DNA from: a virus
Direction: 5' to 3' (one strand)
DNA: 51,655 bases
IMG/VR virus record: IMGVR_UViG_3300030104_001604
Location: 1-51,655 of that record
Shown: one piece after another, positions 99 through 29,689 of the stretch
How the letters are laid out: each line of letters begins with the position of its first letter
Numbering within the stretch: the first letter of the stretch is position 1
Program-made: the position numbers and the translations under genes
The notes under the pieces: generated by a model
Databases searched by the model: none
What the model saw: the letters and a program-made list of their open reading frames with translations, nothing else
Told to the model about the DNA's origin: nothing

Positions 99-1682
99 GA
101 CGCTGTAGAAGATAGGCAAATAGAAAAAATAATTAGAGCAGCTTATCAATCTGAATTATCTCGTGTTGTTGAGTTTCAAGCTGATCAACAAGTTGGCAAC
201 GATGGAGCAATTATGAATTATGGTTTAGAAAAACCACAGATTCAAAAAACAATGGAAGATCTTGTTTTAGCTACAAGTGTACACATCGGTAATGAAAGAC
301 TAGAAATTGCTGAAAAAGATAAACAAGTAATTATTATTAATCCTAGAATTGGTTGGGACACAACAGAAGTATCAGACATAATTACAGGAAATATATTAGA
401 ACCATTACCAAGTTCAAATTTTTTAAATGCTAAAAAAATAACATTTAATGATTTTAGAACAGAAATGGATGAAACAAGAAATGAAGTAGCTGCTCAAACT
501 ACACCTTCTTTAGAAACAGAAGTACAAAATACTATAGAAGATCCCGAACCACTTGAAGGTGAACGTATTCAAATCTCAAATATAACTGCACAAGACTTAC
601 GAGATTTTGCTAATGAAAATAGCAAAACAGATGTTTTAGACGTTATTGCAAAAAGTCCAACAGATGTAGTACAAAAAATAGTTTCTACTCCTAATGCAAG
701 TCTTTATAGTAATAAAGGAGATACTACTGGAGCTTTTACAAGTAAAGGTCGTACTAAAATGGAAATTAGTAATGATGGAGATGTTTGGAATTTTAAATTT
801 CAAGGAGGTGTAGTTTCATTAGCAGCCAATCCAGATTTAGTTCCTAACTTTGAGGATATTCCTGAAGGAAATATTAAAGATGACATACGTGTTGTAGCTT
901 CGGAATATAATAGATTACAAACAAAATATGCAGATGATCCTAGTGTGTTAACTAAATCTATTTCTGGAGTAAGAACACAGGGTATAGGAAGAACATTAGA
1001 TGTTGGTTCAGAAAATCAAGAACTGTTTAATGATCAAAAAACAATGAGAGGTATTATAGCTGCATTTGATTTTCCAGGGCCATTTGATAAAGCAAGACCT
1101 TTAGTTGAAGACTTTTTAGCAAGTGTACCTACAGGTGAAACTGTATCTTCTTTTGAAACAGAAGACAATAGAGATTCTATATTAGCAAAACCTAGTGTAG
1201 ATATGGATTCAATTGCATCTTTAATTAAATCTGAAGAAGGGCTACTTCCTACAGTATCAGCAGATTCTTTTTCTAAAGAAAACGGAAAATTTGTAAGAGA
1301 TGAGGTAACTGAAAACATGCCCCTTTCAGGAGGATATGGGCATTTATTAACAGCAGCAGAACGCAAAAAATATCCACCTGGTTCTGAAATTCCTCAAGAA
1401 CAAATAGATAAATGGTTTGAGGAAGATTTAAGAAAAGCTTATGAAGCTGCTGTAGCTCAAAACAAGCAGTTGTCTACTCCTTTAGACATTGGACGTTTAA
1501 CTGCTGTTAATTTTCAATTAGGTACAGATTGGTATAAAGATCATAAAGAAACTTGGAAGGCTATGGTAGCTGGAGACTATGCTCTTGCAACAGAAGAAAT
1601 TAAAGAAAGATCTAAATGGTATACACAAACACCAGCAAGAGCTGAATCCTTAATTAATTCTTTTCCCACTGTTAAAAGTTAG
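1..1682 (+). CDS. Virion-associated lysozyme / internal virion protein, C-terminal part (gene continues from 50424)
   Basis: This is the 3' part of a gene that starts at 50424 and crosses the contig junction; the frame is open from base 3. The full product is 937 residues. Its C-terminus carries a T4-lysozyme-like (GH24) muramidase domain at about residues 779-930. It shows a SEEGL segment with the likely catalytic Glu near 790, a GYGHLLT motif near 822-828, and a C-terminal helical part with the LTAVNFQLG and RAESLINSF segments. GH24 enzymes cut the MurNAc-GlcNAc bond. The position among internal virion proteins suggests local peptidoglycan cutting during DNA entry rather than lysis. It is followed after 9 bp by another large virion gene. 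The first ATG in this part (213) is internal, not the start. Confidence 0.8.
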   Translation, partial: QAAQSKIKLSAKQQFFPNKGVDELETNDQKYLDAVEDRQIEKIIRAAYQSELSRVVEFQADQQVGNDGAIMNYGLEKPQIQKTMEDLVLATSVHIGNERLEIAEKDKQVIIINPRIGWDTTEVSDIITGNILEPLPSSNFLNAKKITFNDFRTEMDETRNEVAAQTTPSLETEVQNTIEDPEPLEGERIQISNITAQDLRDFANENSKTDVLDVIAKSPTDVVQKIVSTPNASLYSNKGDTTGAFTSKGRTKMEISNDGDVWNFKFQGGVVSLAANPDLVPNFEDIPEGNIKDDIRVVASEYNRLQTKYADDPSVLTKSISGVRTQGIGRTLDVGSENQELFNDQKTMRGIIAAFDFPGPFDKARPLVEDFLASVPTGETVSSFETEDNRDSILAKPSVDMDSIASLIKSEEGLLPTVSADSFSKENGKFVRDEVTENMPLSGGYGHLLTAAERKKYPPGSEIPQEQIDKWFEEDLRKAYEAAVAQNKQLSTPLDIGRLTAVNFQLGTDWYKDHKETWKAMVAGDYALATEEIKERSKWYTQTPARAESLINSFPTVKS

Positions 1683-1691
1683 GATTGCATA

Positions 1692-4600
1692 ATGGCTGAA
1701 GAAGAATACATTACAATAAAAAGAAGAACTCAACCTAAAGCACCAGAAGCAAGCACATTAGAAAAGCTTCAATATGGTTTTGATACGTCTTCTTGGATGT
1801 TAGGTGACATTGGAAGAGTTGCAGAATCTTATTTAACTGGTCAATCTACAAAAGAATTAGATGATCAACGTGTTGCTAAACTTAATAAAAAATATAAAAA
1901 TTTATCTGCTAAAGATAAAACATCTACGGCTGCATCAGTGGGTGAAATTCTAGGTGAAGTACTAGATCCTGTATTTTATGTACCTTATTTTGGACAGGTA
2001 GGGGCACTTCGTAAAGGTGCAACATTAGGGCAAAAAGCTTTAGCTAAAACTAAATCAGGAACAGCTCTTGGTAGTTTGGTAGCTGCTGATTCAGCAGTAG
2101 ATTCTATTGCAAGAGGAGAAGAAATTAATGCAGGAGGAGTAGGCGTAGCCTTTGCAACTGGTTTTGTTCCTGGAGCTATTTTTAGTCCTAGTGCTAAAGT
2201 TACTAATATTAGACCTTCATCAATTAATATATCTGAACAACAAAAACCTCTAACTAAATGGTTAAATCCTGCATTATCTGAAGCAGATGAAAAAACTGTT
2301 CAAACAGTTTTACAACAAACAGAAAAAGAAAATGTTAAGTTTGTTGCTGCTTTAAGAGATGTGCCTGATATTGGTAGGCAAGCAGGAGAAGCTACAAAAA
2401 CTATAGATGTTTTAGTTAAAGCAAAAAGAAAAGCTAAAAAAATAGCTAAACGAAAAGGAGAAAAATTAAAAATAAATGATCCTGCTTTATTAAAATATGT
2501 GCCTTCAGAATTAGTAGAAGCAGAAGTTAAAGCACAACAATTTTTAAAGACTTTACCTTCTTTATATAAAAAGTATAGTGAAGATTTAGCAGATGGTTCT
2601 TTTAATACTTTAGAAAATTTATCTAAAAACAATACATTTAACTCTAATGTTTTTGCTAGAGCAATTACGAGGCCGTTAATGGGAGGAGTTGCTGGTTATG
2701 GACTAGGTGTAACAAATAACTTTTTTTCTGAAGAAGATCATTTAAGTCCTTGGGGATGGGCATTAGCAGGATTAACAATGGGACAGCTCTCTAAAAAAAT
2801 TATTAAATCTAATTTATCTTTAAATGTTAAAGAAGAAGGTTTAAAAGGAGTAGAAGATTTAGCTCGTAGAAGTTTATGGGCACAAACTAATATGTTTTTT
2901 GCTGGCTCACATGCTGCAAAATTAAATGTGTATGGTGATGATGTTGCAGCTTTTGGTAAGAATATGTTTAGACAGATGGGGTATGGTGTAGAAGGAGCAA
3001 CTACACAATCCTTAGAAGAAACAATATCACGAGTAACACAACAACTAAACAAACAATTAAACGATGCTTCTATACAATTTAATTTGTCTGGTGTAAAAAA
3101 TAGAGAAGCTAGAGAAGCAGCATTTGATTTAGCTAATGGGTTTACTAATGAAGCAAAACTAGCTAGTCGTTTTTCAGCAGAAGAAATAACTAATATAAAA
3201 GGCTATAGTGATTTTTCTAGAACTTTTACTGATGCGTTTGCTGCTGAAGTAAAAAATGTAGGTATAGATTTTAAAGAATTAAAAGATTATGGATTACCTC
3301 AATTACATAATGTAGAAAAAATTATTAGTAATAAAAACGAAGCACTAATAGCTTATACAAAAGCATTTGAAGCTCAATCTCCTGAAAGTGTAGATCATGC
3401 TAAAATGGCAGAAAAATTTATTAATAATTTAATTACAATGGGAGGATCTCGTAAAATTATTAGAAGTGCTTTTAAAAAACAAGGCGATTATGACGATCCT
3501 AATAAAGTCTTGCGACCTATGACAGATCACTTTGAAAAGAAAAGAAAAATTGTTTCGTTTGAAGCTAGAAATGAAATAAAAGATTTTTTAATTCGTGACA
3601 CAGACCAAGTTTTAAAAACTTTTTTAGATAAAAGTGTTGATAAAGTTGAATTTGCTAGACGTTACGGCCCAAATGGAGAAGGCATACAGCAATTAAGAAA
3701 TAAAATTGTTGATGATACTAGTCAAGCAAAACAAATTGCTGCTACAGAAAAACAAAGAACAATATTAAACAATCGTCAAAACGCACAAATAAAAGCTATA
3801 AATGAATCTGTTGATTTATTGTTTGGTCTTCACAATGCTGATACTGCTTTAGCTAAAAGTACAGTAGCTAATAATACTTTTAGTGTGTTAACTACAATGG
3901 CTAATTTAACTTACTTACCTAAAGCAACTGTAGCAGCCATAGGCGATGTTATTCAACCTTTTCAAAATAGTGGTGTATACAACACCATGAAAGGTTATGG
4001 AAAAGCAATGGATAGCGAAAGAGATTTTTCAAAACTGTCAGGCTTTGCAGCTAAAGATGTTCTTGGACAAGAGTTGCGACAGTTTTATACAGGTTCTACA
4101 CCTTCGGGTGTGCCTGGCAGTTTGCTTCAATTAACAACACGTAAAGTAAATGAAAAATTTTTTAGAACAATAGGTTTGGCTTCTTTAACACAACATGCAG
4201 GAAGGTTTGCTTATAACGCAGGAATAGAAGATGGTTTTAAAGTTGCAAAACAAATGGCTAAAGGCCAGCAAAGCACTAGTTTAAAAGCACAAGCAAGACA
4301 GCTTGGCATTACAGATGAAATGGCTGACACATTAAATAAATTTAAAACAGTAGATGAAGCTTTTGCTGATGATTTAGGTCAAGAATTTTTAGATCGAATA
4401 GGTAATAAAGCATCTAGCCGTGATCGTATTATTCCAGAAATAGGAAACAGACGAGCTTTTACACAATCTAAAGATCCATTTATTAGATCACTAGGACAGT
4501 TCTTGTCTTGGGCACAAGCAAAAACTACACAAACTAATGCTTTAGTATCTCGTATAGAAGATGGGGATGTAGCATTAGCTACTCGTATGTTAGGAACATT

Positions 4601-6116
4601 AATTCTTTATGATGGCGTTTTAACTTTCAGAGATTTTCTTAATGATCCATTAGGTGAGCGTTTAGAAGAACAAGGTTACTCAGATTTTGCTGATAAGATT
4701 ACTAGTTTTGATCAAATTATAGGTAGAGGTTCTATTTTTTCAGGAAACTTTGCACCTTGGCAAGTTGATAAAGTTGCTAGAGTTTTATCTGGTGCAAGAT
4801 ATGGAGATTCTTTAGAGTCTATTAGTCCTACTGCTGCATGGGCTGCTTCTTTAGTAGAAGGAATTCCAGCAGTAACTAAAAATATTGAAGCTAGAGATTA
4901 TGAAGGTGCAACATATCAAGCTGTAAGACGATTACCTTTAGGTCGAGAAGCATTAGCTATACAAGGTATTACAACTAATAGACCTTTGAAAGATCAACCT
5001 AATCGTAAACCTATGGGTGCTCAACCAGGAAGTTTATTTTTAAATAAAGGTGGGATAATAAGTAATGCAATTCGTAAGAAGAAAGATAAAGGTGGTATTG
5101 CTTTAGTTCCTAATGCACCTGTCGAACCTGATCAAAGAATAGATAAGATGACAGGCGTACCTTATGATGAACAAGCAGGTGAAGCCTATACAGATGTTGA
5201 AGATCGTCAAGGACTAATAGCAGCAGCACTTGGTAAAAAATTACAACGACACACTTTTGTAGCTGGAGGTCTAAGTAAATTATTAAAAGTGTTAGCTAAA
5301 AAAGTAGCTGATGTTCCAGAAGAAAGTGTGCCTATTAGACCTGTACCTCCAAAACAATTAGACGTAGAAAATACACCTAAGTTTGATCCTAACATTACTG
5401 CTAGGTTAGAAGCACAAGGAGTTGATATTGCTAAGAGTTTGGAAGAAGGTGGACAGTATGTAGATCCTAGAACTGCTGAAGTTTTAACTAATAGGGTGAT
5501 TACGGATTCAGTAATTGATGGTGTAACTTCAAATAATAATAAACCAATAATGAAAGGACGTTTAAGAAGTTTTTCTACCGATGCAAAATTTACTAAACAA
5601 ATTGAAGAGGCAGCACAACAGAAAAAAAATAATAAAGATATTACAACTTTAAAAACTAATTTATTAAATCCTGAAAAGTATAAAGTACTTAGTAGTAAAG
5701 TTGAAGGTTTAAAAAATCATTTACAAGGTAAGCGTTCTATTGTAACTGTTGAAGGAAAAAGTGGTAAGCAATATAAAAAAGATAGAGGAGTTGTAACTAA
5801 TCATGCTTATGGTTTAACTGTAAAAGCAAAGGGAGATGGTTTTTTACAAAGAGTATTAGCAAAAGATAAAAAAAGTCGTTACAAAACTGCTGAAGGAGAA
5901 GGATATGCTCAACCTTCTTTAAGACCACACTATATTGGAGATTATAAAACAGGCAAACAAATAGGAACTATTACAACAGGGGGTGGTAAAACTTTAAAAA
6001 AACATCCTTTATATGACACCATTTACATAGACGCAGAAGATTTAAGAGAATATGTAGGTAAAGCAGAAGGTGGTTTAACTGATGCAGGTCAAGTAGTAAA
6101 TATAGAATTAAGTTAA
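1692..6116 (+). CDS. Large internal virion / DNA-ejection protein (1474 aa)
   Basis: This is the longest gene of the phage. Its position, directly after the lysozyme-bearing virion protein and before the lysis genes, matches the T7 gp16 slot. It is mostly helical, with Lys-rich stretches (near residues 240-260) and several Gly/Ala-rich hydrophobic segments (about 80-165 and 330-365) that could contact membrane. The last 370 residues are different: Gly-rich basic patches such as NKGGIISNAIRKKKDKGG, and an ending with EGGLTDAGQVV. No catalytic motif was recognised, and the transglycosylase domain of T7 gp16 is not evident. The role comes from size, context and composition, not from a family match. 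Confidence 0.65.
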   Translation: MAEEEYITIKRRTQPKAPEASTLEKLQYGFDTSSWMLGDIGRVAESYLTGQSTKELDDQRVAKLNKKYKNLSAKDKTSTAASVGEILGEVLDPVFYVPYFGQVGALRKGATLGQKALAKTKSGTALGSLVAADSAVDSIARGEEINAGGVGVAFATGFVPGAIFSPSAKVTNIRPSSINISEQQKPLTKWLNPALSEADEKTVQTVLQQTEKENVKFVAALRDVPDIGRQAGEATKTIDVLVKAKRKAKKIAKRKGEKLKINDPALLKYVPSELVEAEVKAQQFLKTLPSLYKKYSEDLADGSFNTLENLSKNNTFNSNVFARAITRPLMGGVAGYGLGVTNNFFSEEDHLSPWGWALAGLTMGQLSKKIIKSNLSLNVKEEGLKGVEDLARRSLWAQTNMFFAGSHAAKLNVYGDDVAAFGKNMFRQMGYGVEGATTQSLEETISRVTQQLNKQLNDASIQFNLSGVKNREAREAAFDLANGFTNEAKLASRFSAEEITNIKGYSDFSRTFTDAFAAEVKNVGIDFKELKDYGLPQLHNVEKIISNKNEALIAYTKAFEAQSPESVDHAKMAEKFINNLITMGGSRKIIRSAFKKQGDYDDPNKVLRPMTDHFEKKRKIVSFEARNEIKDFLIRDTDQVLKTFLDKSVDKVEFARRYGPNGEGIQQLRNKIVDDTSQAKQIAATEKQRTILNNRQNAQIKAINESVDLLFGLHNADTALAKSTVANNTFSVLTTMANLTYLPKATVAAIGDVIQPFQNSGVYNTMKGYGKAMDSERDFSKLSGFAAKDVLGQELRQFYTGSTPSGVPGSLLQLTTRKVNEKFFRTIGLASLTQHAGRFAYNAGIEDGFKVAKQMAKGQQSTSLKAQARQLGITDEMADTLNKFKTVDEAFADDLGQEFLDRIGNKASSRDRIIPEIGNRRAFTQSKDPFIRSLGQFLSWAQAKTTQTNALVSRIEDGDVALATRMLGTLILYDGVLTFRDFLNDPLGERLEEQGYSDFADKITSFDQIIGRGSIFSGNFAPWQVDKVARVLSGARYGDSLESISPTAAWAASLVEGIPAVTKNIEARDYEGATYQAVRRLPLGREALAIQGITTNRPLKDQPNRKPMGAQPGSLFLNKGGIISNAIRKKKDKGGIALVPNAPVEPDQRIDKMTGVPYDEQAGEAYTDVEDRQGLIAAALGKKLQRHTFVAGGLSKLLKVLAKKVADVPEESVPIRPVPPKQLDVENTPKFDPNITARLEAQGVDIAKSLEEGGQYVDPRTAEVLTNRVITDSVIDGVTSNNNKPIMKGRLRSFSTDAKFTKQIEEAAQQKKNNKDITTLKTNLLNPEKYKVLSSKVEGLKNHLQGKRSIVTVEGKSGKQYKKDRGVVTNHAYGLTVKAKGDGFLQRVLAKDKKSRYKTAEGEGYAQPSLRPHYIGDYKTGKQIGTITTGGGKTLKKHPLYDTIYIDAEDLREYVGKAEGGLTDAGQVVNIELS

Positions 6117-6128
6117 GGACTAAGAAGA

Positions 6129-6503
6129 ATGTATAAGTATTTTACAAAAGATGAACTTGCATGTTCACATTGCGGTAATCTTGTTATTGATGATGAATTT
6201 ATAAAGAAGATAGAAGCTTTACGAGAAGCAGTAGGGTTTCCATTCGTAGTCTCAAGTGCATACAGGTGTGAACAACACCCCATAGAAAAGCGTAAATCAA
6301 CTCCTGGGGCACACATAACTGGAAAGGCTATGGATATACATGTCACTGGAGAAAACGCTCTGAGGCTCTTAGAAGAGGCTCTGAAGGCTGGCTTTACAGG
6401 GATAGGTATCAATCAAAAAGGACAAGTGAACTCTAGGTTTATACATCTAGATATTATAGACAATTCATCAACAAGACCAAGGCCCTGGATATGGAGTTAT
6501 TAA
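6129..6503 (+). CDS. M15 family zinc peptidase, probable endolysin
   Basis: This 124-aa protein has the Peptidase_M15_3 fold signature: an SAYRCEQHP segment, zinc ligands H62 and D69 in GAHITGKAMD (H-x6-D), and a third ligand H106 in RFIHLD. The family cleaves peptide cross-links or stem peptides (D-Ala-D-Ala or L-Ala-D-Glu) of peptidoglycan. It has no signal peptide, so it would need the holin encoded downstream to reach the wall. It begins 12 bp after the large ejection gene, and its 3' end overlaps a small membrane gene by 13 nt. It is the most likely main lysis enzyme. Confidence 0.85.
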   Translation: MYKYFTKDELACSHCGNLVIDDEFIKKIEALREAVGFPFVVSSAYRCEQHPIEKRKSTPGAHITGKAMDIHVTGENALRLLEEALKAGFTGIGINQKGQVNSRFIHLDIIDNSSTRPRPWIWSY

Positions 6504-6619
6504 AGAAGAAGTTAGGAAGAGGTGGACAGTACCCAATAATCTGGACAATTTATCATACAATACTTGCAGTTGAGTTAGCTATTGTTATTTTGTTGTTAGG
6601 TTTATTGGTAGTTAAATGA
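6491..6619 (+). CDS. Small single-span membrane protein (42 aa)
   Basis: Translating from ATG 6491 gives 42 residues: a basic N-terminus (MELLKKKLGRGGQ) followed by one strongly hydrophobic helix (about residues 17-41). It overlaps the endolysin by 13 nt and the next gene by 4 nt (ATGA), which indicates translational coupling. It could be an accessory holin, a pinholin or an antiholin. No family was recognised. The basic N-terminus predicts N-in topology. Confidence 0.6.
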   Translation: MELLKKKLGRGGQYPIIWTIYHTILAVELAIVILLLGLLVVK

Positions 6620-6801
6620 GACTTATGGCTTTCCTTCTAATAGTAATTGTAGAAGGAGAAGAAATTAATACTAGAGGTATGCACTTTAGAGATGTCAATA
6701 GATGTCGTTACTTTGCAGACCGATTAGAAGATAGAGAATCTAAAGTAACTGGATACTGTAAGCCTGTACTAGTTGCACAGACTACTACCTTTAGGGATTA
6801 A
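6616..6801 (+). CDS. Small protein with N-terminal signal-anchor (61 aa)
   Basis: It starts in an ATGA overlap with the 42-aa membrane gene. The first dozen residues (MRLMAFLLIVIV) form a short hydrophobic signal or anchor. The rest is polar, with two cysteines (NRCRYFADRL and GYCKPVLVA) that could form a disulphide if exported. It sits between the membrane protein and iscU, with a single base separating it from the iscU start. The function is unknown. A periplasmic or membrane lysis accessory is an inference from the company it keeps. Confidence 0.6.
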   Translation: MRLMAFLLIVIVEGEEINTRGMHFRDVNRCRYFADRLEDRESKVTGYCKPVLVAQTTTFRD

Positions 6802-6802
6802 T

Positions 6803-7192
6803 ATGGCTTATAGCGATAAAGTAATGGATCATTACAACAATCCTAGAAACGTAGGACGTTTAGATAAGACTGACAAACAAGTTGGTACAGGAATGGTAGG
6901 TGCACCTGCCTGTGGAGATGTTATGCAACTTCAGATTAAAGTAGATGCAGAAGGTGTTATAGAGGATGCAAAGTTTAAGACCTATGGTTGTGGTTCTGCT
7001 ATAGCGTCTAGTTCTTTACTGACTGAATGGGTTAAAGGAAAAAAGTTAATAGAAGCAGAAGGTATTAAAAATGTAGATATAGCAGAAGAACTATCTTTAC
7101 CGCCTGTAAAGATTCATTGTTCTGTTTTAGCAGAGGATGCTATAAAAGCTGCTATAAAAGACTATAAGGAAAAAGGTTATGAATATATTTAG
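6803..7192 (+). CDS. iscU: IscU-type iron-sulphur cluster scaffold protein
   Basis: The 129-aa product aligns over its full length with the E. coli IscU sequence as I know it. The three cluster cysteines (C37, C63, C106) are present, along with D39 in PACGD, H105, and the LPPVK motif (99-103) bound by the HscA chaperone. IscU assembles [2Fe-2S] and [4Fe-4S] clusters from sulphur delivered by IscS and passes them to target proteins. ATG 6803 (MAYSDKV) fits the family; an in-frame ATG 30 nt upstream is less likely. No iscS, iscA, hscA or fdx is present, so the protein must work with host partners. It overlaps the holin gene by 14 nt and so belongs to the late lysis cassette. This is probably an auxiliary metabolic gene. 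Confidence 0.93.
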   Translation: MAYSDKVMDHYNNPRNVGRLDKTDKQVGTGMVGAPACGDVMQLQIKVDAEGVIEDAKFKTYGCGSAIASSSLLTEWVKGKKLIEAEGIKNVDIAEELSLPPVKIHCSVLAEDAIKAAIKDYKEKGYEYI

Positions 7193-7556
7193 TGCAATTG
7201 TAGGGCCAGTAGCTAATCTTGCTGGCACATGGATGAACAATAAACATGAACAGACACAAGCTAAACACAAAGCTAAGATGGCTGTAATAGAACATGATGC
7301 TGATTGGGAATCCAAGATGGCAGATGCTTCTGGATCGAGCTGGAAAGACGAATTTTGGACTCTTGTATTAGCCCTGCCCATCTTTATGGTAGGCTATGCA
7401 GTTGCCTTTAATGATCCTTCTGTATTAGACAGAGTTCATGCATCGTTTGATGCTTTGTCTAACCTCCCTGAGTGGTATTCCTACCTCCTTTTTATTGCGG
7501 TCAGTGCGTCATTTGGTATTAGAGGTGCTGACAAACTTATGAAGATGCGAAAATGA
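7179..7556 (+). CDS. Holin, 3-TM type (PF11351-like)
   Basis: This 125-aa protein has the pattern of the GTA/phage holin_3TMs family. An N-terminal hydrophobic segment (about 4-18) is followed by a charged amphipathic stretch rich in K/H/Q (22-50), then two clear membrane helices (about 60-80 and 98-116) and a basic C-terminus (DKLMKMRK). Holins permeabilise the inner membrane at a set time so that endolysin can reach peptidoglycan. It overlaps iscU by 14 nt and the next membrane gene by 4 nt. Confidence 0.75.
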   Translation: MNIFSAIVGPVANLAGTWMNNKHEQTQAKHKAKMAVIEHDADWESKMADASGSSWKDEFWTLVLALPIFMVGYAVAFNDPSVLDRVHASFDALSNLPEWYSYLLFIAVSASFGIRGADKLMKMRK

Positions 7557-7753
7557 GTCCAGAAGAGTTTGACAAGTGGCGTATAGTTCCACGACTATTA
7601 GTATTGATGATGGCTCTTGCTTGTTGGGATGTGATTCATTGGTTCACCACTTTGGAACAGCCAACGATTGAACAGGCCGGGCTGGTTTCGGTGTGCACCG
7701 GAGCTATGACTGCCGTTTTCGGTTTATTTTTAGGTAAGGGGAAACAGGAATGA
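7553..7753 (+). CDS. Small two-span membrane protein (66 aa), holin partner candidate
   Basis: It is ATGA-coupled to the holin. The protein has two hydrophobic segments (about residues 12-27 and 43-60) around a polar loop and ends in GKGKQE. Its size and topology suit an antiholin or a second holin, but no family motif was recognised. It is also ATGA-coupled to the first of four basic small proteins, so lysis and basic-protein genes share one translation-coupled run. Confidence 0.6.
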   Translation: MSPEEFDKWRIVPRLLVLMMALACWDVIHWFTTLEQPTIEQAGLVSVCTGAMTAVFGLFLGKGKQE

Positions 7754-7938
7754 CAGCAAAGAAAAAGAAAAAATCTAGGGTTAATGAAGCTGGTAATTAT
7801 ACTAAACCTACAATGCGTAAAAGGCTGTTCAATAAAATAAAGGCTGGCTCTAAAGGTGGTAAGCCAGGTCAGTGGTCAGCACGTAAAGCACAGATGTTAG
7901 CACAGCAATATAAAAAAGCTGGAGGAGGCTACAAATGA
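7750..7938 (+). CDS. Small basic protein 1 (62 aa)
   Basis: A very Lys-rich product (MTAKKKKKSR start) with a conserved-looking core: NYTKPTMRKRLF, KAGSKGGKPGQWSARKAQ, YKKAGGGYK. I recall similar short proteins from marine phages but cannot name a function. It is ATGA-coupled on both sides. Its strong positive charge suggests binding to nucleic acid. Confidence 0.65.
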   Translation: MTAKKKKKSRVNEAGNYTKPTMRKRLFNKIKAGSKGGKPGQWSARKAQMLAQQYKKAGGGYK

Positions 7939-8084
7939 AAGTAAAAGCACCTAAAGGTTATCATTGGATGAAACAAAAAGATGGATCATACAAAGTTATG
8001 AAACATACAGGTAAGTTTGTAGCACATAAAGGTGCAAGCCTTTCAGCAAACTTTGCAGTTCAAAAGGTTCATAAGAAGAAATGA
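7935..8084 (+). CDS. Small basic protein 2 (49 aa)
   Basis: Read directly from ATG 7935, it overlaps the previous stop by 4 nt and ends in an ATGA overlap with the next gene at 8081. The product starts MKVKAPKGYHWMKQKDGSY and ends AVQKVHKKK. It is strongly basic, with aromatic and His residues and no hydrophobic segment. The couplings on both sides are the main evidence that it is a real gene. Confidence 0.6.
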   Translation: MKVKAPKGYHWMKQKDGSYKVMKHTGKFVAHKGASLSANFAVQKVHKKK

Positions 8085-8329
8085 CTCTTAAAAAATCACA
8101 GAAGTCTTTAAAGGCTTGGACAAAACAAAAGTGGCGTACTAAGTCTGGTAAGAAATCTTCCAAGACAGGAGAAAGATACTTGCCAGAGAAAGCTATAAAG
8201 TCTTTATCTTCTAAAGAATACGCAGCAACTACACGTAAGAAAAGAGAAGATACAAAGAAAGGCAAACAACATTCTAAACAACCTAAACAGATTGCTAAAA
8301 AAACTAGGCGATATAGGAAAACAAAATGA
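8081..8329 (+). CDS. Small basic protein 3 (82 aa, DUF5872-like)
   Basis: Lys/Arg-rich throughout, with the segments TKQKWRTKSGK, RYLPEKAIKSLSSKEYAATTRKK (split by positions, not contiguous quoting) and KQPKQIAKKTRRYR. The pattern resembles the DUF5872 family found in phages and giant viruses. That assignment is from memory and needs an HMM search. Start and stop both sit in ATGA overlaps. The biochemical role is unknown; nucleic-acid binding is inferred from charge. Confidence 0.65.
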   Translation: MTLKKSQKSLKAWTKQKWRTKSGKKSSKTGERYLPEKAIKSLSSKEYAATTRKKREDTKKGKQHSKQPKQIAKKTRRYRKTK

Positions 8330-8640
8330 TGCGTGATGATTACAAAAAAGGTGGTAAAACAAAAGACTCTCGTTTAAAACGAGCAGGAGTGTCTGGCTAT
8401 AACAAACCAAAGCGTACACCTAACCATCCTAAAAAGTCTCATGTGGTTGTAGCTAAAGAAGGTAGTAAAGTTAAAACAATTCGATTTGGTGAGCAAGGAG
8501 CTAAGACAGCAGGTAAACCTAAGTCTGGTGAATCAGCACGAATGAAAGCCAAACGTAAAAGTTTTAAAGCTAGGCATGGTAGGAACATTAGTAAAGGTAA
8601 AATGTCAGCAGCTTATTGGGCTAATAAAGTTAAATGGTAG
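8326..8640 (+). CDS. Small basic protein 4 (104 aa, DUF6321-like)
   Basis: It contains the segment KSHVVVAKEGSKVKTIRFG followed by a Lys/Arg-rich helix and a C-terminal SKGKMSAAYWANKVKW. This resembles the DUF6321 domain seen in marine phages (recalled, not searched). The start is ATGATG, with either 8326 or 8329 usable; 8326 gives the ATGA overlap typical of this run. It overlaps the nuclease gene by 7 nt. Confidence 0.7.
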   Translation: MMRDDYKKGGKTKDSRLKRAGVSGYNKPKRTPNHPKKSHVVVAKEGSKVKTIRFGEQGAKTAGKPKSGESARMKAKRKSFKARHGRNISKGKMSAAYWANKVKW

Positions 8641-8999
8641 AACCATACACATATAATTGTACGTTAGTTCGTGTAGTGGACGGAGATACAATCGTATGTA
8701 ATATTGATTTAGGGTTTGATGTTGTACTCTCTGAACAGTTTATTAGACTAGCTGGCATTGATGCACCTGAGAGCCGTTGCCGTAGACCTATAGAAAAGAA
8801 GTTAGGACTACTAGCAAAAGAAAGATTAGAAGAGATTTTAAAAGGCACGTTTAAACTTAAAAGTTTAGGCAAAGGAAAATTTGGAAGAATATTAGGGATA
8901 CCATACGTTGATAATGTAGACGTATGTTCAACTCTAATAAATGAAGGACACGCAGTAGAATATGAAGGCGGTAAAAAAACAAAAGTCTGGGGAGAGTGA
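8634..8999 (+). CDS. Staphylococcal-nuclease-like (thermonuclease) protein
   Basis: This 121-aa protein has the SNase signature: VVDGDTI (D16, D18), RLAGIDAPESR with R38, D43 and E46 in the catalytic spacing, and a second catalytic Arg (R85) in GKFGRILG. The family cleaves DNA or RNA using Ca2+. No signal peptide is seen, so it probably acts in the cytoplasm, for example on host nucleic acid. It lies directly after the basic-protein run and overlaps the next gene by 38 nt. Confidence 0.85.
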   Translation: MVEPYTYNCTLVRVVDGDTIVCNIDLGFDVVLSEQFIRLAGIDAPESRCRRPIEKKLGLLAKERLEEILKGTFKLKSLGKGKFGRILGIPYVDNVDVCSTLINEGHAVEYEGGKKTKVWGE

Positions 9000-9300
9000 C
9001 ACTAAGTATACTGCTGAAGAGATTGCAAACTCTAAAAGAATTTACAAGTCTGCAACTCCTAAGTATACAATTGATTGGTACATAAAATGGGTATCTTCTA
9101 TATTATTATTAGTTGCCATGTGTATTCGATCTGCTCAGTTTAATGCAGCACTAGACCTTGGACTTTCTTTTATAGGAATGCTTGGTTGGTTATGGGTAGG
9201 TATTCTTTGGAAAGACAGAGCTATTATAATTGTTAATGGTGCTGCTTCTGTAATTCTACTAACAGGTATTTTGAGATACCTAAAACATTTTACATACTAG
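8962..9300 (+). CDS. Three-span membrane protein (112 aa)
   Basis: A polar, Lys-rich N-terminus (1-38) is followed by three membrane helices at about 41-58, 66-85 and 88-105, with GWLWVGILWKDRA between helices two and three. The three-helix layout recalls SemiSWEET/DUF6552-type proteins, but this is only a topological resemblance. The start lies inside the nuclease gene; no in-frame alternative with a better ribosome site was seen. The function is unknown. Confidence 0.6.
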   Translation: MKAVKKQKSGESDTKYTAEEIANSKRIYKSATPKYTIDWYIKWVSSILLLVAMCIRSAQFNAALDLGLSFIGMLGWLWVGILWKDRAIIIVNGAASVILLTGILRYLKHFTY

Positions 9301-9312
9301 AGGACAAGACAA

Positions 9313-10101
9313 ATGATTAAAAAATTATTTACAGCATTATGCTTTGTAGTCTTAACAGGCTGTCAAACTGCTGGGATGGAGTACTATCAAGCTGTAGAGA
9401 ATGTAGCGATTGCTCAAGCACAAGCACAACAAGCTAAGTCAGAAGCTCTGGCACAAATAGCTGCATCAGGTGATAACAGTGCAGCAGGGTCAGCAGTTAT
9501 GGCTTTAGCCCTCATGCAAGCACCTCATACACAGGTTATACCACAACAATCGGTAGCTCTTGAGTGGACGAAGGCCGTCCTCCCGGTTGCCGGAAGCCTT
9601 GGAAGCATGTGGATCAGCTCAGATGCTCAGAAGAGTACAGCTAGGTATGCTATGCAATCTAACTTAGCCAGGATTCAACAAGACGGTCAAAAAACTACAG
9701 CTCTTTATAACATGTTAGGTAATAACAGCGACAACATGTTGAACTTAGGATTAGGATCTTATGATGCTATCAATGTAGCAGGTCAACAGTCTGTTGATTT
9801 AGGACTTGGACTAGGACTAGCAAGTATAAATAGTGTGTCAGGTAGTACAGATAATTCTGCTGTACTAGATGCTTTAGGCAACCTACAGTTTCCTAATTAT
9901 ACTAGTAATTTTCAAGGTATTCTTGATGCAATTGGTAACATTTCAATTCCTAACTATGATTCTCAATTAGATGCGATACTAACACAAATAAATAATTCTA
10001 ATACTGTTTGGGTTGCTGGAGTTAATTGTGTAAATAATACATCTTCTGGTGTAATTGGAGTAGGGGGTATCAATACATCTTTACCAGTGTGTCCAAACTG
10101 A
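9313..10101 (+). CDS. Phage-encoded lipoprotein (262 aa)
   Basis: The N-terminus MIKKLFTALCFVVLTGCQ is a Sec/Lsp signal with lipobox LTGC and the lipidated cysteine at 17. The mature part is Ala/Gln-rich to about residue 75, then Asn/Ser/Gly-rich. It contains a twofold repeat, LDALGNLQFPNY and LDAIGNISIPNY (about 184-212). AGGAC at 9300 serves as ribosome site. Lipoproteins in phages can act as outer spanins or as superinfection-exclusion factors. This one is long for a spanin and lacks Pro-richness, so neither role is assigned. Confidence 0.75.
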   Translation: MIKKLFTALCFVVLTGCQTAGMEYYQAVENVAIAQAQAQQAKSEALAQIAASGDNSAAGSAVMALALMQAPHTQVIPQQSVALEWTKAVLPVAGSLGSMWISSDAQKSTARYAMQSNLARIQQDGQKTTALYNMLGNNSDNMLNLGLGSYDAINVAGQQSVDLGLGLGLASINSVSGSTDNSAVLDALGNLQFPNYTSNFQGILDAIGNISIPNYDSQLDAILTQINNSNTVWVAGVNCVNNTSSGVIGVGGINTSLPVCPN

Positions 10102-10140
10102 GTGGGTTCATATTTTGTATCTGTTACAAATCCAAAGAAA

Positions 10141-10160
10141 CGCTTAAAAGAATTTAAGCG
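10141..10160. other. Perfect hairpin between lipoprotein gene and 10184 gene
   Basis: CGCTTAAA-AGAA-TTTAAGCG forms a perfect 8-bp stem with a 4-nt loop. On the plus strand it is followed by A/G, so it is not a plus terminator. On the minus strand it is followed by TTTCTTT, a weak U-run. It could stop minus-arm transcripts that pass the convergence point near 10650. Confidence 0.45.
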
Positions 10161-10183
10161 AAAGAAAAAAAGGAGCAAATAGT

Positions 10184-10657
10184 GTGGAGCCGATTGCATT
10201 ATTATCAATGGCTACGACTGCCTTTAAAGGTGTCCAGACTCTTGTGCAACGTGGACGAGAGATTGAAGATGTCGCTCAACATCTAGGTAGATGGTATGGT
10301 TATGTAGCTGATATCAATGAGGCTCAAAGAGAATCTGAAAAGCCTCCTATATTTAGAAAACTATTAGACAAAGGATCAGTAGAACAAGAAGCTCTGAATG
10401 CAATCATCGTAAAGAAAAAAATTGAACAGCAAGAAAGAGAGATACGAGATCTAATCGTTGTTGTATACGGAATTGAAACGTATCGTGAAATGATACAGAT
10501 GCGTAAAGATATAAGATCTAAACGAGAAAGATTAGTTTATAAACAAAAAAGGCGCAGACGTTCAATACTAGATGGTATTGTTATAGTGATTGGACTAACT
10601 ACATGCGTTGGAATTGTTTATGGTTTCTATGAGCTGTTAATGAACTATGCTAAGTAG
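10184..10657 (+). CDS. Coiled-coil protein with C-terminal membrane anchor (157 aa)
   Basis: It has a GTG start with AGGAG at 10171-10175 (8-nt spacing). The product has an N-terminal Ala-rich segment, a charged helical middle (IVKKKIEQQEREIRDL, about 85-125), an Arg/Lys-rich stretch (KQKRRRRS, about 120-128) and a C-terminal hydrophobic helix (about 130-150). It is tail-anchored in appearance. Similar proteins occur in marine phages, function unknown. It is the last gene of the plus arm; its stop overlaps the end of the convergent minus gene by 8 nt. Confidence 0.7.
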   Translation: MEPIALLSMATTAFKGVQTLVQRGREIEDVAQHLGRWYGYVADINEAQRESEKPPIFRKLLDKGSVEQEALNAIIVKKKIEQQEREIRDLIVVVYGIETYREMIQMRKDIRSKRERLVYKQKRRRRSILDGIVIVIGLTTCVGIVYGFYELLMNYAK

Positions 10658-26288: not shown

Positions 26289-26299
26289 TTTTCAATACT

Positions 26300-26323
26300 C
26301 CAATTTTGATTAATCAATATTGG
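26300..26323 (-). promoter_or_regulatory. 24-bp palindrome at the ribosome site of the 287-aa gene
   Basis: CCAAT-t-TTGATTAATCAA-t-ATTGG is a 24-bp palindrome with one mismatched pair. On the minus strand its end overlaps the GGAG ribosome site before ATG 26288. It could be a repressor operator or an RNA hairpin masking the ribosome site. Confidence 0.6.
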
Positions 26324-26451
26324 CAACATCCTATCTAGTAAGCTGCAAAGCCTACTAAGTAGGACATTGCCGCTAGTGCTACTACTTAATTTAGTAATAG
26401 CTACTCCCTATATACACTAGTCGGAAGTGATAATCACGCTATATCGGTAAA

Positions 26452-26467
26452 ATGTGAATATTCACAT
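26452..26467. promoter_or_regulatory. 16-bp perfect palindrome
   Basis: ATGTGAATATTCACAT is a perfect 16-bp palindrome in an AT-rich stretch. The shape is typical of a dimeric HTH-protein operator. TGTGA..TCACA also resembles a CRP-type half-site pair, but the central spacing (4 bp) is too short for a CRP site (6 bp). Confidence 0.5.
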
Positions 26468-26657
26468 ATTTAATATATTACGTGCAATATAGAGCTATAC
26501 GTGCTAGCGAATTCTTCAACTCAAAATAAAGTGATACATGTATTTAATAACAATGTATCAGTTTGATTATTGGATAGTTTTATAGACTATGAAGTAACAA
26601 ACTAAAAAGCTTTAAAGCCTACACAGCTTCGTAAACTAGTGACGCTAAACTCAATAG

Positions 26658-26743
26658 ACTGCAAAGCCTACCAAGTTCTAAAAGAGAACTTACTAGATAG
26701 CTTGTTAGTTCTAAAATAGAACTCACTTTGTAGGCTTTGCAGT
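26658..26743. repeat. 14-bp inverted repeat enclosing AGTTCT/AGAACT dyads
   Basis: ACTGCAAAGCCTAC (26658-26671) and GTAGGCTTTGCAGT (26730-26743) are perfect inverted copies. Between and just after them are three dyads: AAGTTCT..AGAACTT (26673-26691), AGTTCTA..TAGAACT (26707-26723) and GTTC..GAAC (26750-26764). CTGCAAAGCCTAC also occurs at 26343-26355, with partial copies at 26614-26622 and 26777-26785. This looks like an iteron or operator cluster. Confidence 0.6.
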
Positions 26744-26800
26744 TTGTCAGTTCTATTTTGGAACGTGTCTTTTTAGTCTGCAAAGTTTTTTTAGCTTGAT

Positions 26801-26830
26801 GGGCGGCAGGAGGCCGGGCCACCCCCCCTC
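26801..26830. other. GC-rich island (26 of 30 bases G/C), packaging-site candidate
   Basis: The 30 bases from GGGCGGCAGGAGGCCGGGCC through a run of seven C contain four A/T only, in an otherwise AT-rich region. On the minus strand GGGTGGC can pair with GCCGCCC using one G-U. It lies about 590 bp upstream of the small terminase gene, where many phages have cos or pac sites. Function is a guess. Confidence 0.35.
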
Positions 26831-26864
26831 TATGACAACTAAATCTCATACATTTTTACAGACT

Positions 26865-27290
26865 TCAAAGGTTAACCAGTTTTGAGTCGGAACTACCAAG
26901 CCAATAAAGTCTATAAAGATCTTCTTCTTTTTCGTAGGCTTCTTGTTCCCAAGGCAGAGTTAGATAGGAACATTCAGAATAGTCCTTACCTTTCCACATA
27001 TGTTTATAAGGTGAGAGTTCACCCTTTAGGTATTGTTTAGCATGAATGAGTTCATGTGCTAAATTGTGCATCATTTGATCTAGTGTCAAGTCTTTTCGTG
27101 CCAGAGTTATCTCTATAGATTGTTTATCACCCCAACAAGCCCCATAGAGATCTTCAAATTCATTTACTATAGTTATTTCTATATGAACTAAACGTCTAAT
27201 ACGAGGTAAGAATGAATATAAAATATCATTTATATATTTTTCTATTCTTTTCTTTTGGGCTATACGCCCTACAAAGTCTATATAGAACAT
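26865..27290 (-). CDS. SprT-like zinc metallopeptidase, first gene of the minus arm
   Basis: The 141-aa protein has HELIH (H79, E80, H83) in the helix MMHNLAHELIHAKQYLKG, and a possible third ligand H97 in YKHMWKG. WEQEAYEKEEDLY follows. This is the layout of the small SprT/YgjP-like metallopeptidases seen in phages. SprT relatives cut proteins linked to DNA, but the phage target is unknown. It is the first gene after the leftward promoter (start about 27335) and should be among the first proteins made. Confidence 0.75.
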   Translation of the reverse strand: MFYIDFVGRIAQKKRIEKYINDILYSFLPRIRRLVHIEITIVNEFEDLYGACWGDKQSIEITLARKDLTLDQMMHNLAHELIHAKQYLKGELSPYKHMWKGKDYSECSYLTLPWEQEAYEKEEDLYRLYWLGSSDSKLVNL

Positions 27291-27320: not shown

Positions 27321-27335
27321 AGCCCCGGTAGGGCT
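27321..27335 (-). promoter_or_regulatory. 5' hairpin of the leftward transcript
   Basis: On the minus strand AGCCC-TACCG-GGGCT can form a 5-bp stem. It begins almost exactly at the predicted transcription start (about 27335), so it would cap the 5' end of the mRNA. 5'-terminal stems usually protect RNA from RppH/RNase E decay. Confidence 0.45.
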
Positions 27336-27341
27336 TAGTTA

Positions 27342-27370
27342 AGTATACAGGTCAGTTCAGCTTTTGTCAA
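27342..27370 (-). promoter_or_regulatory. Leftward consensus promoter (minus arm)
   Basis: On the minus strand TTGACA (27365-27370) and TATACT (27342-27347) are spaced by exactly 17 bp. This is a near-perfect sigma70 promoter (one mismatch in the -10). Transcription should start near 27335, 45 nt before the metallopeptidase ATG. Confidence 0.85.
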
Positions 27371-27386
27371 GTAAAAAAACTTGACA
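27365..27386. promoter_or_regulatory. Dyad overlapping both -35 boxes (operator candidate)
   Basis: TGTCAAGT (27365-27372) and ACTTGACA (27379-27386) are perfect 8-bp inverted copies around AAAAAA. Each arm contains the complete -35 hexamer of one of the two divergent promoters. A dimeric repressor, or one RNA polymerase, bound here would block both sides. Confidence 0.7.
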
Positions 27387-27409
27387 GAGTGTTAATCAGA
27401 CCCTATACT
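27381..27409 (+). promoter_or_regulatory. Rightward consensus promoter (plus arm)
   Basis: TTGACA (27381-27386) and TATACT (27404-27409) are spaced by 17 bp, identical hexamers and spacing to the leftward promoter. Transcription should start near 27416-27417, at the terS ATG itself. Confidence 0.85.
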
Positions 27410-27416
27410 GTAACAT

Positions 27417-27809
27417 ATGCGAGAACTAACCACAAAACAACAGACTTTTCTTGATCATCTAGTATCTGTACAAGGCGATGTAAAAGAAGCAGCACGACTA
27501 GCAGGGTATGCAAATAATGTATACCCCTCAGTAGTTAGAAGCCTAAAGAATGAAATCATAGACCTAGCTTCTAACATATTAGCACAGAGTGCCCCACAAG
27601 CCGCCCTAAAGCTCGTAGAGGCTATGAACTCAGAAACCCCTATCCCTCAAGCTAATATACGCCTACAAGCCGCACAGACGATTCTAGACCGTACAGGGCT
27701 TGGTAAAACAGACAGACTAGACATTAACCATAAAGTAGAAGGGGGTCTATTCATACTACCAGCAAAAGAAGAAGTTATTATTGAAGGTGCATATGAAGAG
27801 AAGAACTAG
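27417..27809 (+). CDS. terS: Terminase small subunit
   Basis: At 130 aa, with an N-terminal LTTKQQTFLDHLV and an AARLAGYAN helix-turn-helix, followed by a helical NIRLQAAQTILDRTGLGK segment, it matches phage small terminases. These bind the packaging site and recruit the large subunit. ATG 27417 is the only usable start, because an in-frame TAA lies at 27411-27413. The predicted promoter start falls on this ATG, so no ribosome-binding leader is possible. It is first in the packaging/head operon. Confidence 0.8.
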   Translation: MRELTTKQQTFLDHLVSVQGDVKEAARLAGYANNVYPSVVRSLKNEIIDLASNILAQSAPQAALKLVEAMNSETPIPQANIRLQAAQTILDRTGLGKTDRLDINHKVEGGLFILPAKEEVIIEGAYEEKN

Positions 27810-28017
27810 TACCATTCCTTTTGGCTATAGTCTATCAGAAGATAAAGTAACCTTAGAAGCTGTACCAGAACAACTAGAAGCATTAAATGAGATAAAAGAA
27901 CTTGTACATGAGAAATCTTTAAGTCTTAGGGATGGAGCAACATGGCTACACTATAAGACAGGTAGAAAGTTAAGCCACGTAGGTTTAAAAAAAATAATAG
28001 ACAAAGCCTATGAATGA
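27793..28017 (+). CDS. Small recombinase-domain-like protein (74 aa)
   Basis: ATG 27793 (MKRRTSTIPFGYSLSED) has GAAGG at good spacing. The pattern IPFGYSL...VPEQLEALNEIKELV...SLRDGATWL...RKLSHVGLKKII resembles a piece of the PF07508 'Recombinase' domain of serine recombinases, without a catalytic domain. Similar small proteins lie between terS and terL in marine phages. It is probably DNA-binding. It overlaps terS by 17 nt and terL by 8 nt. Confidence 0.65.
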   Translation: MKRRTSTIPFGYSLSEDKVTLEAVPEQLEALNEIKELVHEKSLSLRDGATWLHYKTGRKLSHVGLKKIIDKAYE

Positions 28018-29689
28018 TTGGGAAGAAAACCCCGATGCTTATCAGCGAGATGAGGCTGGAGAATTTATTCTCAAAAAAGATGGAACTCCACGTAAAGTTT
28101 CCGGTAGACCGAAAGGTTCAAAAGGTAGAGGCTATAACTATCATTCCGAAACGAAAGCCAAACTCCAAGCCAGGAGATCTGTACGTAACAAACAAAAGAA
28201 ACTGTCCCAAGTCCGTTCTCAACTTGAAGGCTTAAAGGAATCTACCAAAAAGTCCAAAGAGGCTTTAGAAAAGATTGAAAACCCTAACAAGTCTAAAGTA
28301 ATAGATGAAGGAGATATAGAACAACTTACTCCTAATCTTCAAAAGGCACTCAAAGAACAAGATATAATATTCAAATCCAACGAAGGCCCACAGGCAGAGT
28401 TTCTTGCAGCAGGAGAACTTGACGTACTTTATGGTGGTGCAGCAGGAGGTGGCAAGTCCTTTGCCATGATTGTAGATCCTTTACGCTACTGCCATCGTTC
28501 AGCACACAGAGCGTTAATCCTCAGAAGATCCATGCCAGAACTCAGAGAGCTTATAGATAAATCCAGAGAACTTTATCCTAAAGCTTTTCCGGGCTGTAAG
28601 TTCCGTGAGGTTGAAAAGCTATGGAACTTTCCATCAGGAGCTAAAGTAGAGTTTGGATTCTTGGAGCGTGATGCAGACGTATACCGCTATCAAGGTCAAG
28701 CCTTTAGCTGGATAGGGTTTGACGAGATTACACACCTACCCACAGAGTTTTCTTGGAACTATCTAGCTTCACGACTAAGAACAACTGATTCAGAAATTAT
28801 TCCTTATCTACGTTGTACTGCTAACCCAGGAGGTGTAGGGGCACATTGGGTTAAGAAACGCTATGTTACTCCTCACCCACCTAATGAGTCTTTCAAAGGT
28901 GATGATGGTTTAACAAGAAAGTTTATACCAGCTAGACTAGAAGATAATCCATACTTATCGACTGATGGCAGATACGAACAAATGCTACAGTCTTTGCCTC
29001 CTGTACAACGTAAACAACTCTTGGAAGGTAATTGGGATATTACAGAAGGAGCAGCTTTCGCAGAGTTTGATCCAGACGTACATATTATTACTCCCTTTGA
29101 AGTACCTATACATTGGCAACGTCTAAAAGGAATTGACTATGGATATGCTTCTGAAAGTGCTTGTATATGGGCTACAATAGATGCTAACGATGAAACTTTA
29201 ATAATTTATCGAGAATTATACCGTAAGGGGTTGACAGGAGCTGATTTAGGGACTATACTTACTAACATGGAATTGGAAGATCCTGTATCGGTTTCTGGAG
29301 TATTAGATACAGCAGCTTGGGCTAGAACAGGTACAACAGGCCCAACCGTAGGAGAATCTTTAGTTCGATCAGGACATAAACTACGACCTGCTGATAAAAA
29401 TAGAATACAGGGAAAAATCCAAATTCACGAATACTTGAAAGTGCAACAAAACGGAAGGCCACGATTACAAATCTTTAATACATGCCCTAACCTGATACGT
29501 GAGCTTCAAAGTATTCCTTTAAGTAAAAACAATCCAGAAGACGTAGACACTCATGCGCCTGATCATGCGTATGATGCTTTGCGTTATCTGATCATGTCTA
29601 GACCTAGAATTTCAGATACATATGCACAATTAAGAAATCTACGTTTAGAACAAGCCTACCAACCTTCCGATAGTGAGTTTGGTTATTAA
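28010..29689 (+). CDS. terL: Terminase large subunit
   Basis: This 559-aa protein has the ATPase Walker A GGAAGGGKS (142-150) and Walker B SWIGFDE (233-239), then the RNase H-like nuclease with D in KGIDYGYAS, D in GVLDTAAW, and DHAYDALRY near the end. It pumps DNA into the prohead and cuts concatemers. The N-terminal roughly 110 residues are a charged, Lys-rich extension (GRPKGSKGRGYNYHSETKAK), longer than in the minimal family, perhaps for DNA or terS contact. Confidence 0.95.
   Translation: MNDWEENPDAYQRDEAGEFILKKDGTPRKVSGRPKGSKGRGYNYHSETKAKLQARRSVRNKQKKLSQVRSQLEGLKESTKKSKEALEKIENPNKSKVIDEGDIEQLTPNLQKALKEQDIIFKSNEGPQAEFLAAGELDVLYGGAAGGGKSFAMIVDPLRYCHRSAHRALILRRSMPELRELIDKSRELYPKAFPGCKFREVEKLWNFPSGAKVEFGFLERDADVYRYQGQAFSWIGFDEITHLPTEFSWNYLASRLRTTDSEIIPYLRCTANPGGVGAHWVKKRYVTPHPPNESFKGDDGLTRKFIPARLEDNPYLSTDGRYEQMLQSLPPVQRKQLLEGNWDITEGAAFAEFDPDVHIITPFEVPIHWQRLKGIDYGYASESACIWATIDANDETLIIYRELYRKGLTGADLGTILTNMELEDPVSVSGVLDTAAWARTGTTGPTVGESLVRSGHKLRPADKNRIQGKIQIHEYLKVQQNGRPRLQIFNTCPNLIRELQSIPLSKNNPEDVDTHAPDHAYDALRYLIMSRPRISDTYAQLRNLRLEQAYQPSDSEFGY

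Follow-up and report, generated by a model that had tools for sequence, protein, structure and literature searches.

The window, that is, the whole stretch of viral DNA analysed here (51,655 nt; GC content 37%; terminal repeat of 100 nt), encodes the small and large terminase subunits (TerS and TerL), portal protein, major capsid protein, DNA polymerase A, a primase/helicase and a ribonucleotide reductase, among others. The terminal repeat shows a record that is circular in the assembly and whose opening falls within the plus arm; the plus-strand genes at 213-10657 are therefore part of the right arm. The two arms meet near 10650. The initial annotation, which placed all plus-strand genes to the right of the promoter pair described below and all minus-strand genes to its left, is correct on the circle but not in window coordinates.

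Between the arms, two sigma70-type promoters of the form TTGACA-N17-TATACT (11/12 consensus positions each) form a back-to-back pair, with complete -35 and -10 elements on opposite strands and adjacent -35 boxes. The rightward promoter (27381..27409, plus strand) consists of TTGACA at 27381-27386 and, after 17 nt, TATACT at 27404-27409, with a predicted start at 27415-27417; the leftward one (27342..27370, minus strand) has TTGACA at 27370-27365, the same 17-nt spacer and TATACT at 27347-27342, with a predicted start near 27335. About 81 bp lie between the predicted start sites. Only 10 bp separate the -35 boxes, which lie inside the perfect dyad TGTCAAGT-AAAAAA-ACTTGACA (27365..27386), composed of two extended -35 elements with 8-bp arms facing apart. 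Boxes, coordinates and dyad were found exactly as first annotated. To the right follow terS (27417..27809, plus strand; PHROG 2538, E=1.1e-5), whose ATG begins 7 nt after the -10 box, and terL (28010..29689, plus strand; PHROG 979, E=1.5e-61). The first gene to the left (26865..27290, minus strand) encodes a putative metallopeptidase with a HELIH motif.

A strict scan of the 51.7 kb record for TTGACA-N16-18-TATAMT returned three exact sites, two of which are the pair. Simulated genomes of the same dinucleotide composition contained 0.12 strict sites each, and none of 400 carried a back-to-back pair; analytically, 4.5e-6 such pairs are expected per genome. When 15 kb were scanned with a loose consensus, 43 promoter-like sites appeared against 40.6 expected; the pair was among the three best, but loose scans by themselves mean nothing. 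The third strict site (29231-29259) lies in the plus arm inside terL, and similar sites occur in some relatives only. The cultured Pelagibacter phage HTVC115P has an additional plus-arm consensus promoter, at 3894, just upstream of its portal gene.

The TerL of the window is 64-67% identical to those of the Pelagibacter phages HTVC103P, HTVC104P and HTVC115P, and about 44-46% identical to those of HTVC033P, HMO-2011 and the CRP phages; a search for near-identity among GenBank phages gave no match to the window. The combination of an HMO-2011-type TerL/TerS module with a phage DNA polymerase, in a genome without a T7-type RNA polymerase, is that of the HTVC103P-type phages, and together with the GC content of 37% it fits the host-unknown "group IV", which is related to HTVC103P-type phages and has a GC content of 31.9-44.4% (PMC8528129). 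This kind of phage ranks among the most common in the sea. The main text of the study that described the group (PMC8528129) makes no mention of promoters, RNA polymerase or intergenic features, and the literature searched contained no transcription map or data for these phages. No match to the T7-type RNA polymerase family (PF00940) was found in the window or in five relatives, while the T7 positive control scored E=1e-109; the suggestion that the pair belongs to a phage without its own RNA polymerase is thus supported as regards a T7-type enzyme. The near-consensus boxes point to probable use of a host sigma70 RNA polymerase.

Conservation of the pair and the nature of the dyad

Relatives were gathered in two ways. 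The first set was selected by TerL homology only, with the terL of the window as bait, and loci were counted if at least 900 nt were available upstream of terL; the pair was present in 68/68 of them, and 51 of the 75 pairs found in this set match all 24/24 consensus positions. Shuffled upstream regions gave a pair in 3/400 cases. The second set was gathered with a pattern from a non-coding block to the left of the pair, which carries no promoter information, and here 95 of 99 loci had the pair. It is also found in the cultured phages HTVC115P and HTVC103P. When the strict pattern was applied to 17 relative records and the window, the matches were mostly the pair itself, and some records had a few further ones. 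In HMO-2011 the block is kept and one perfect promoter stands beside it, with no partner promoter, and in CRP-1 the block is kept with no clear pair. Judged from these comparisons, the pair is clade-specific and marks the HTVC103P/group IV phages, and the block is older. Exact back-to-back consensus pairs are also frequent in unrelated viral contigs (154/240 places), and there is thus nothing unusual in the general architecture. Comparison with relatives bears out the annotated junction of the arms as the site of two real, strongly conserved consensus promoters.

Across hundreds of relatives, what is kept is the promoters, not their exact distance. In 61 non-redundant loci, with both promoters intact, the gap between the -35 boxes ranges from 6 to 61 bp; it is at most 14 bp in 18/61 and 17-61 bp in 43/61. 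The spacers within the promoters are rigid, with 17 nt in 59/61 and 57/61 loci. According to position-specific counts, a C stands directly before TTGACA in 86-88% of cases, alike on both promoters. Perfect arms of 6, 7 and 8 nt occur within genomes in 21%, 43% and 28% of cases, and when promoters were re-paired between genomes as a control, in 23%, 43% and 22%. We therefore see nothing to suggest that symmetry itself is under selection, and the comparison indicates that the dyad is two outward copies of the extended -35 element (ACTTGACA) and not a repressor site.

These data bear directly on the proposal, made in the initial annotation, that a repressor or activator dimer bound to the dyad acts as a single control on the two genome halves. 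In favour of such an operator stands the perfect 8-bp inverted repeat, which spans both -35 boxes. Its loop length, however, is not conserved, and arms match within genomes just as they do between re-paired promoters, so that the -35 element explains all arm conservation. On the strength of the variable gap and the re-pairing control we rejected the shared operator, which we regard as highly improbable. The annotation had itself stated that related phages keeping the promoters without the shared dyad would speak against its reading, and this is largely what the relatives show: promoters kept, compact dyad not. A striking dyad can thus be a mere by-product of two strong promoters.

The same annotation considered the site a mutually exclusive start point, at which the 10-bp gap admits a single RNA polymerase and each template starts either its left or its right arm. 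For this particular genome such exclusion is possible, since with starts about 81 bp apart the alpha-CTD zone of each polymerase overlaps the -35 box of the other, and 18 of the 61 non-redundant relatives have similarly short gaps of up to 14 bp. As a conserved property it does not hold: the 43 relatives with gaps of 17-61 bp have both promoters intact, and exclusion is hence not what selection keeps. Moreover, the start sites of lambda PR and PRM lie about 82 bp apart, and these promoters interfere with each other without strict exclusion. We consider an exclusive switch quite unlikely.

Closeness might instead serve torsional coupling, with the negative supercoiling behind each polymerase helping the other and the gap being helically phased. 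Gaps in the 61 non-redundant loci peak near 8, 20, 30 and 41 bp, the Rayleigh statistic for the first 61 loci is maximal at a helical repeat of 10.5 bp (nR2 = 12.5), and coupling by supercoiling is established for the back-to-back ilvY/ilvC promoters (PMC4469952). With control for relatedness, however, nR2 drops to 6.6 (74 clusters), 4.1 (58) and 2.3 (35), so that only a hint of helical phasing is left after clustering; torsional coupling seems to us unlikely.

The explanation that we favour, and hold to be likely, is that the pair is the central transcription start of a phage dependent on host sigma70, made up of two independent, near-consensus promoters placed back to back.

The rightward promoter and the terS mRNA

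In 66 of 74 TerS clusters, 6-11 nt (mode 7) separate the end of the -10 box from the terS ATG, and every one of the 226/226 loci with this distance uses ATG as its start codon. Longer leaders of 20-147 nt occur in 8/74 clusters, and HTVC033P has one of 156 nt. TerS homology starts right behind the ATG (M-x-KELT-x-KQ) and the terS start is therefore not an annotation artefact. Among divergent pairs in unrelated contigs, only 14/232 sides had the same -10 to ATG distance. Shine-Dalgarno-like motifs precede 27 of 35 genes in the window, terS being without one.

Since transcription usually starts about 7 bp from the -10 element (PMC12825309), an ATG 6-11 nt past it suggests that the terS mRNA is leaderless or nearly so. 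From this distance, the terS mRNA is probably leaderless; the start could also sit a few bases further upstream, which would give a very short leader instead of none. Leaderless phage mRNAs have precedents in PY54, where both the cI and cro mRNAs were shown by RACE to lack a leader, and in lambda cI (PMC4488713). The precedents that we found (PY54 cI and cro) are repressor genes, whereas here the gene concerned would be terS. This amounts to a prediction of a conserved leaderless mRNA for a gene of the structural module, not for a repressor.

The predicted leftward RNA, the non-coding region and the conserved block

The predicted leftward RNA begins at its +1 with the hairpin AGCCCU-ACC-GGGGCU (27321..27335, minus strand; z = -3.3). 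Hairpins were scored by folding each sequence separately, as the stems misalign in a MAFFT alignment. Of 54 leaders, 74% fold with z < -1 at this position, compared with 35-41% of control windows at 40-60 nt and 11-15% at 80-100 nt downstream. An Rfam search returned only a tRNA, in one relative. The HELIH-motif gene lies between hairpin and block, and no comparable ORF was seen at that place in the relatives otherwise examined; their first substantial leftward ORF is mostly 400-1000 nt from the promoter, with non-coding DNA before it. A short, terminated leftward RNA as a general rule was rejected, as a strict terminator test was passed by 3/61 leaders (L040, L060 and L076). The claim that the site controls both halves of the genome is accordingly overstated for the left: 400-1000 nt of non-coding DNA come first, early terminators occur in a few relatives, and some relatives have extra promoters.

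Two features of single relatives may be added. An intrinsic terminator is found about 50-110 nt past the leftward -10 box in L060 and L076, and by eye in HTVC115P, and would give a short RNA in these three. The early arms of L436, L429, L333 and L334 contain modules resembling GTTTCACAACCGCATAATGCGCAGGGAAAC followed by TTGACC, several times repeated in L436; these may be promoters of a second class that include a palindromic site.

The region at 26289..26864, which has the leftward promoter on one side and the minus-arm genes on the other, is non-coding and rich in palindromes, and we regard it as a candidate replication origin. Dense palindromes of the CTTTAAAG, CTCTAGAG and GTTCTAAAATAGAAC types fill it in the window and in relatives such as L333 and L429. 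Here also lies the conserved block, CTGGTTnACA...AAAATGTAT...TTAGTATATATA-[GC tract]-ATGGCCTCCTGCC (26805..26884, minus strand; E=1.7e-17), which is internally of rigid spacing and at its start overlaps with the 3' end of the ORF at 26865-27290. A sequence model of the block has one strong match in each of 15 clade records, with an extra, very weak match in one of them. HTVC103P, HMO-2011 (NC_021864, 53557-53630) and CRP-1 (MK613343, 53459-53534) each have one weak match, which in the latter two is far from terS; the match in HTVC115P sits elsewhere. Depending on the relative, the GC tract consists of a run of G, a run of C or a mixture.

Transcription primes or activates origins in lambda (ori), T7 and mitochondrial DNA. 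By analogy, the leftward promoter may mainly serve replication, its RNA priming or activating an origin at the block, a reading compatible with the favoured central transcription start and which we put forward tentatively, at somewhat less than even chances. The leftward RNA would traverse the block, whose distance from the promoter is 108-357 nt in 95 loci, and the first substantial ORF mostly lies 400-1000 nt away; the block is single-copy in nearly all records searched, the region is rich in palindromes, and the cumulative GC skew has its minimum at the site of the promoter pair, although this minimum is confounded by gene direction. Palindromes, single copy, arm boundary and skew together suggest a replication origin as a lead. 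Against a priming role, the GC tract may be a G-run or a C-run, hence no fixed strand-specific primer structure exists, and a packaging (cos or pac) site is an alternative reading of the block. Packaging is in turn opposed by contig ends, which do not cluster in the GC tract, and by HMO-2011, where the block is about 8 kb from terS. A cos site at the GC tract was rejected, no contig ending inside the tract. About 187-247 nt past the block lie twelve ends of block-bearing contigs; they have no sequence in common and may be assembly breaks at hairpins.

A proposed central transcription start compared with known systems

In the picture that we propose, host sigma70 RNA polymerase would start both genome arms from the central promoter pair. 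The rightward promoter would launch the arm of packaging and structural genes, its mRNA starting with the terS start codon or no more than a few bases away from it, and TerS would be translated from this leaderless mRNA, unlike most other genes, which have a Shine-Dalgarno site. The leftward RNA would start with a stem-loop, probably protecting its 5' end, and enter the palindrome-rich non-coding region and the block before reaching the minus-arm genes, in the window after one inserted gene. A further step, that one conserved central element runs the whole cycle, with a leaderless terminase mRNA one way and a structured, initially non-coding, replication-activating RNA the other way, is speculative and we doubt it; if true, late-arm transcription and the start of replication would be tied to one site. 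The promoter pair is in any case an unambiguous landmark for starts, arm boundary and orientation, recognisable in most of the clade's genomes, and the block offers a single-copy non-coding element as a possible replication origin or packaging site. What most merits further work is the conserved start of terS, with its predicted leaderless mRNA, and the non-coding block.

Like lambda PR/PRM and PY54 cI/cro, the pair consists of two back-to-back sigma70 promoters central to two transcription units, and the start sites, about 82 bp apart in lambda, are predicted about 81 bp apart here. A search for cI/cro-like repressor genes beside the pair gave no match, the neighbours being terS and the HELIH-motif protein. 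A lambda-type immunity switch has operator repeats of conserved spacing, whereas here the gap varies and symmetry equals that of the control. The likeness extends to leaderless mRNAs, known for lambda cI and for PY54 cI and cro (PMC4488713) and predicted here for terS; the differences are that both promoters are near consensus, that the leaderless gene is terS and that no conserved operator lies between. The bidirectional promoters of E. coli described by Warman et al. share with the pair divergent transcription by sigma70 polymerase from one short region, but they have a common, pseudo-symmetrical -10 element and starts 10-23 bp apart (PMC12825309), whereas the window has separate -10 elements (27342-27347 and 27404-27409) and more widely spaced predicted starts. 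HMO-2011-type phages (HMO-2011, CRP-1) have no back-to-back pair, and their terS is kilobases away; they share the block as a weak but positioned match between the two arms, in HMO-2011 with the perfect promoter adjoining. As to the HTVC103P-type and group IV phages, the promoter pair and the predicted leaderless terS are also present in HTVC115P and HTVC103P.
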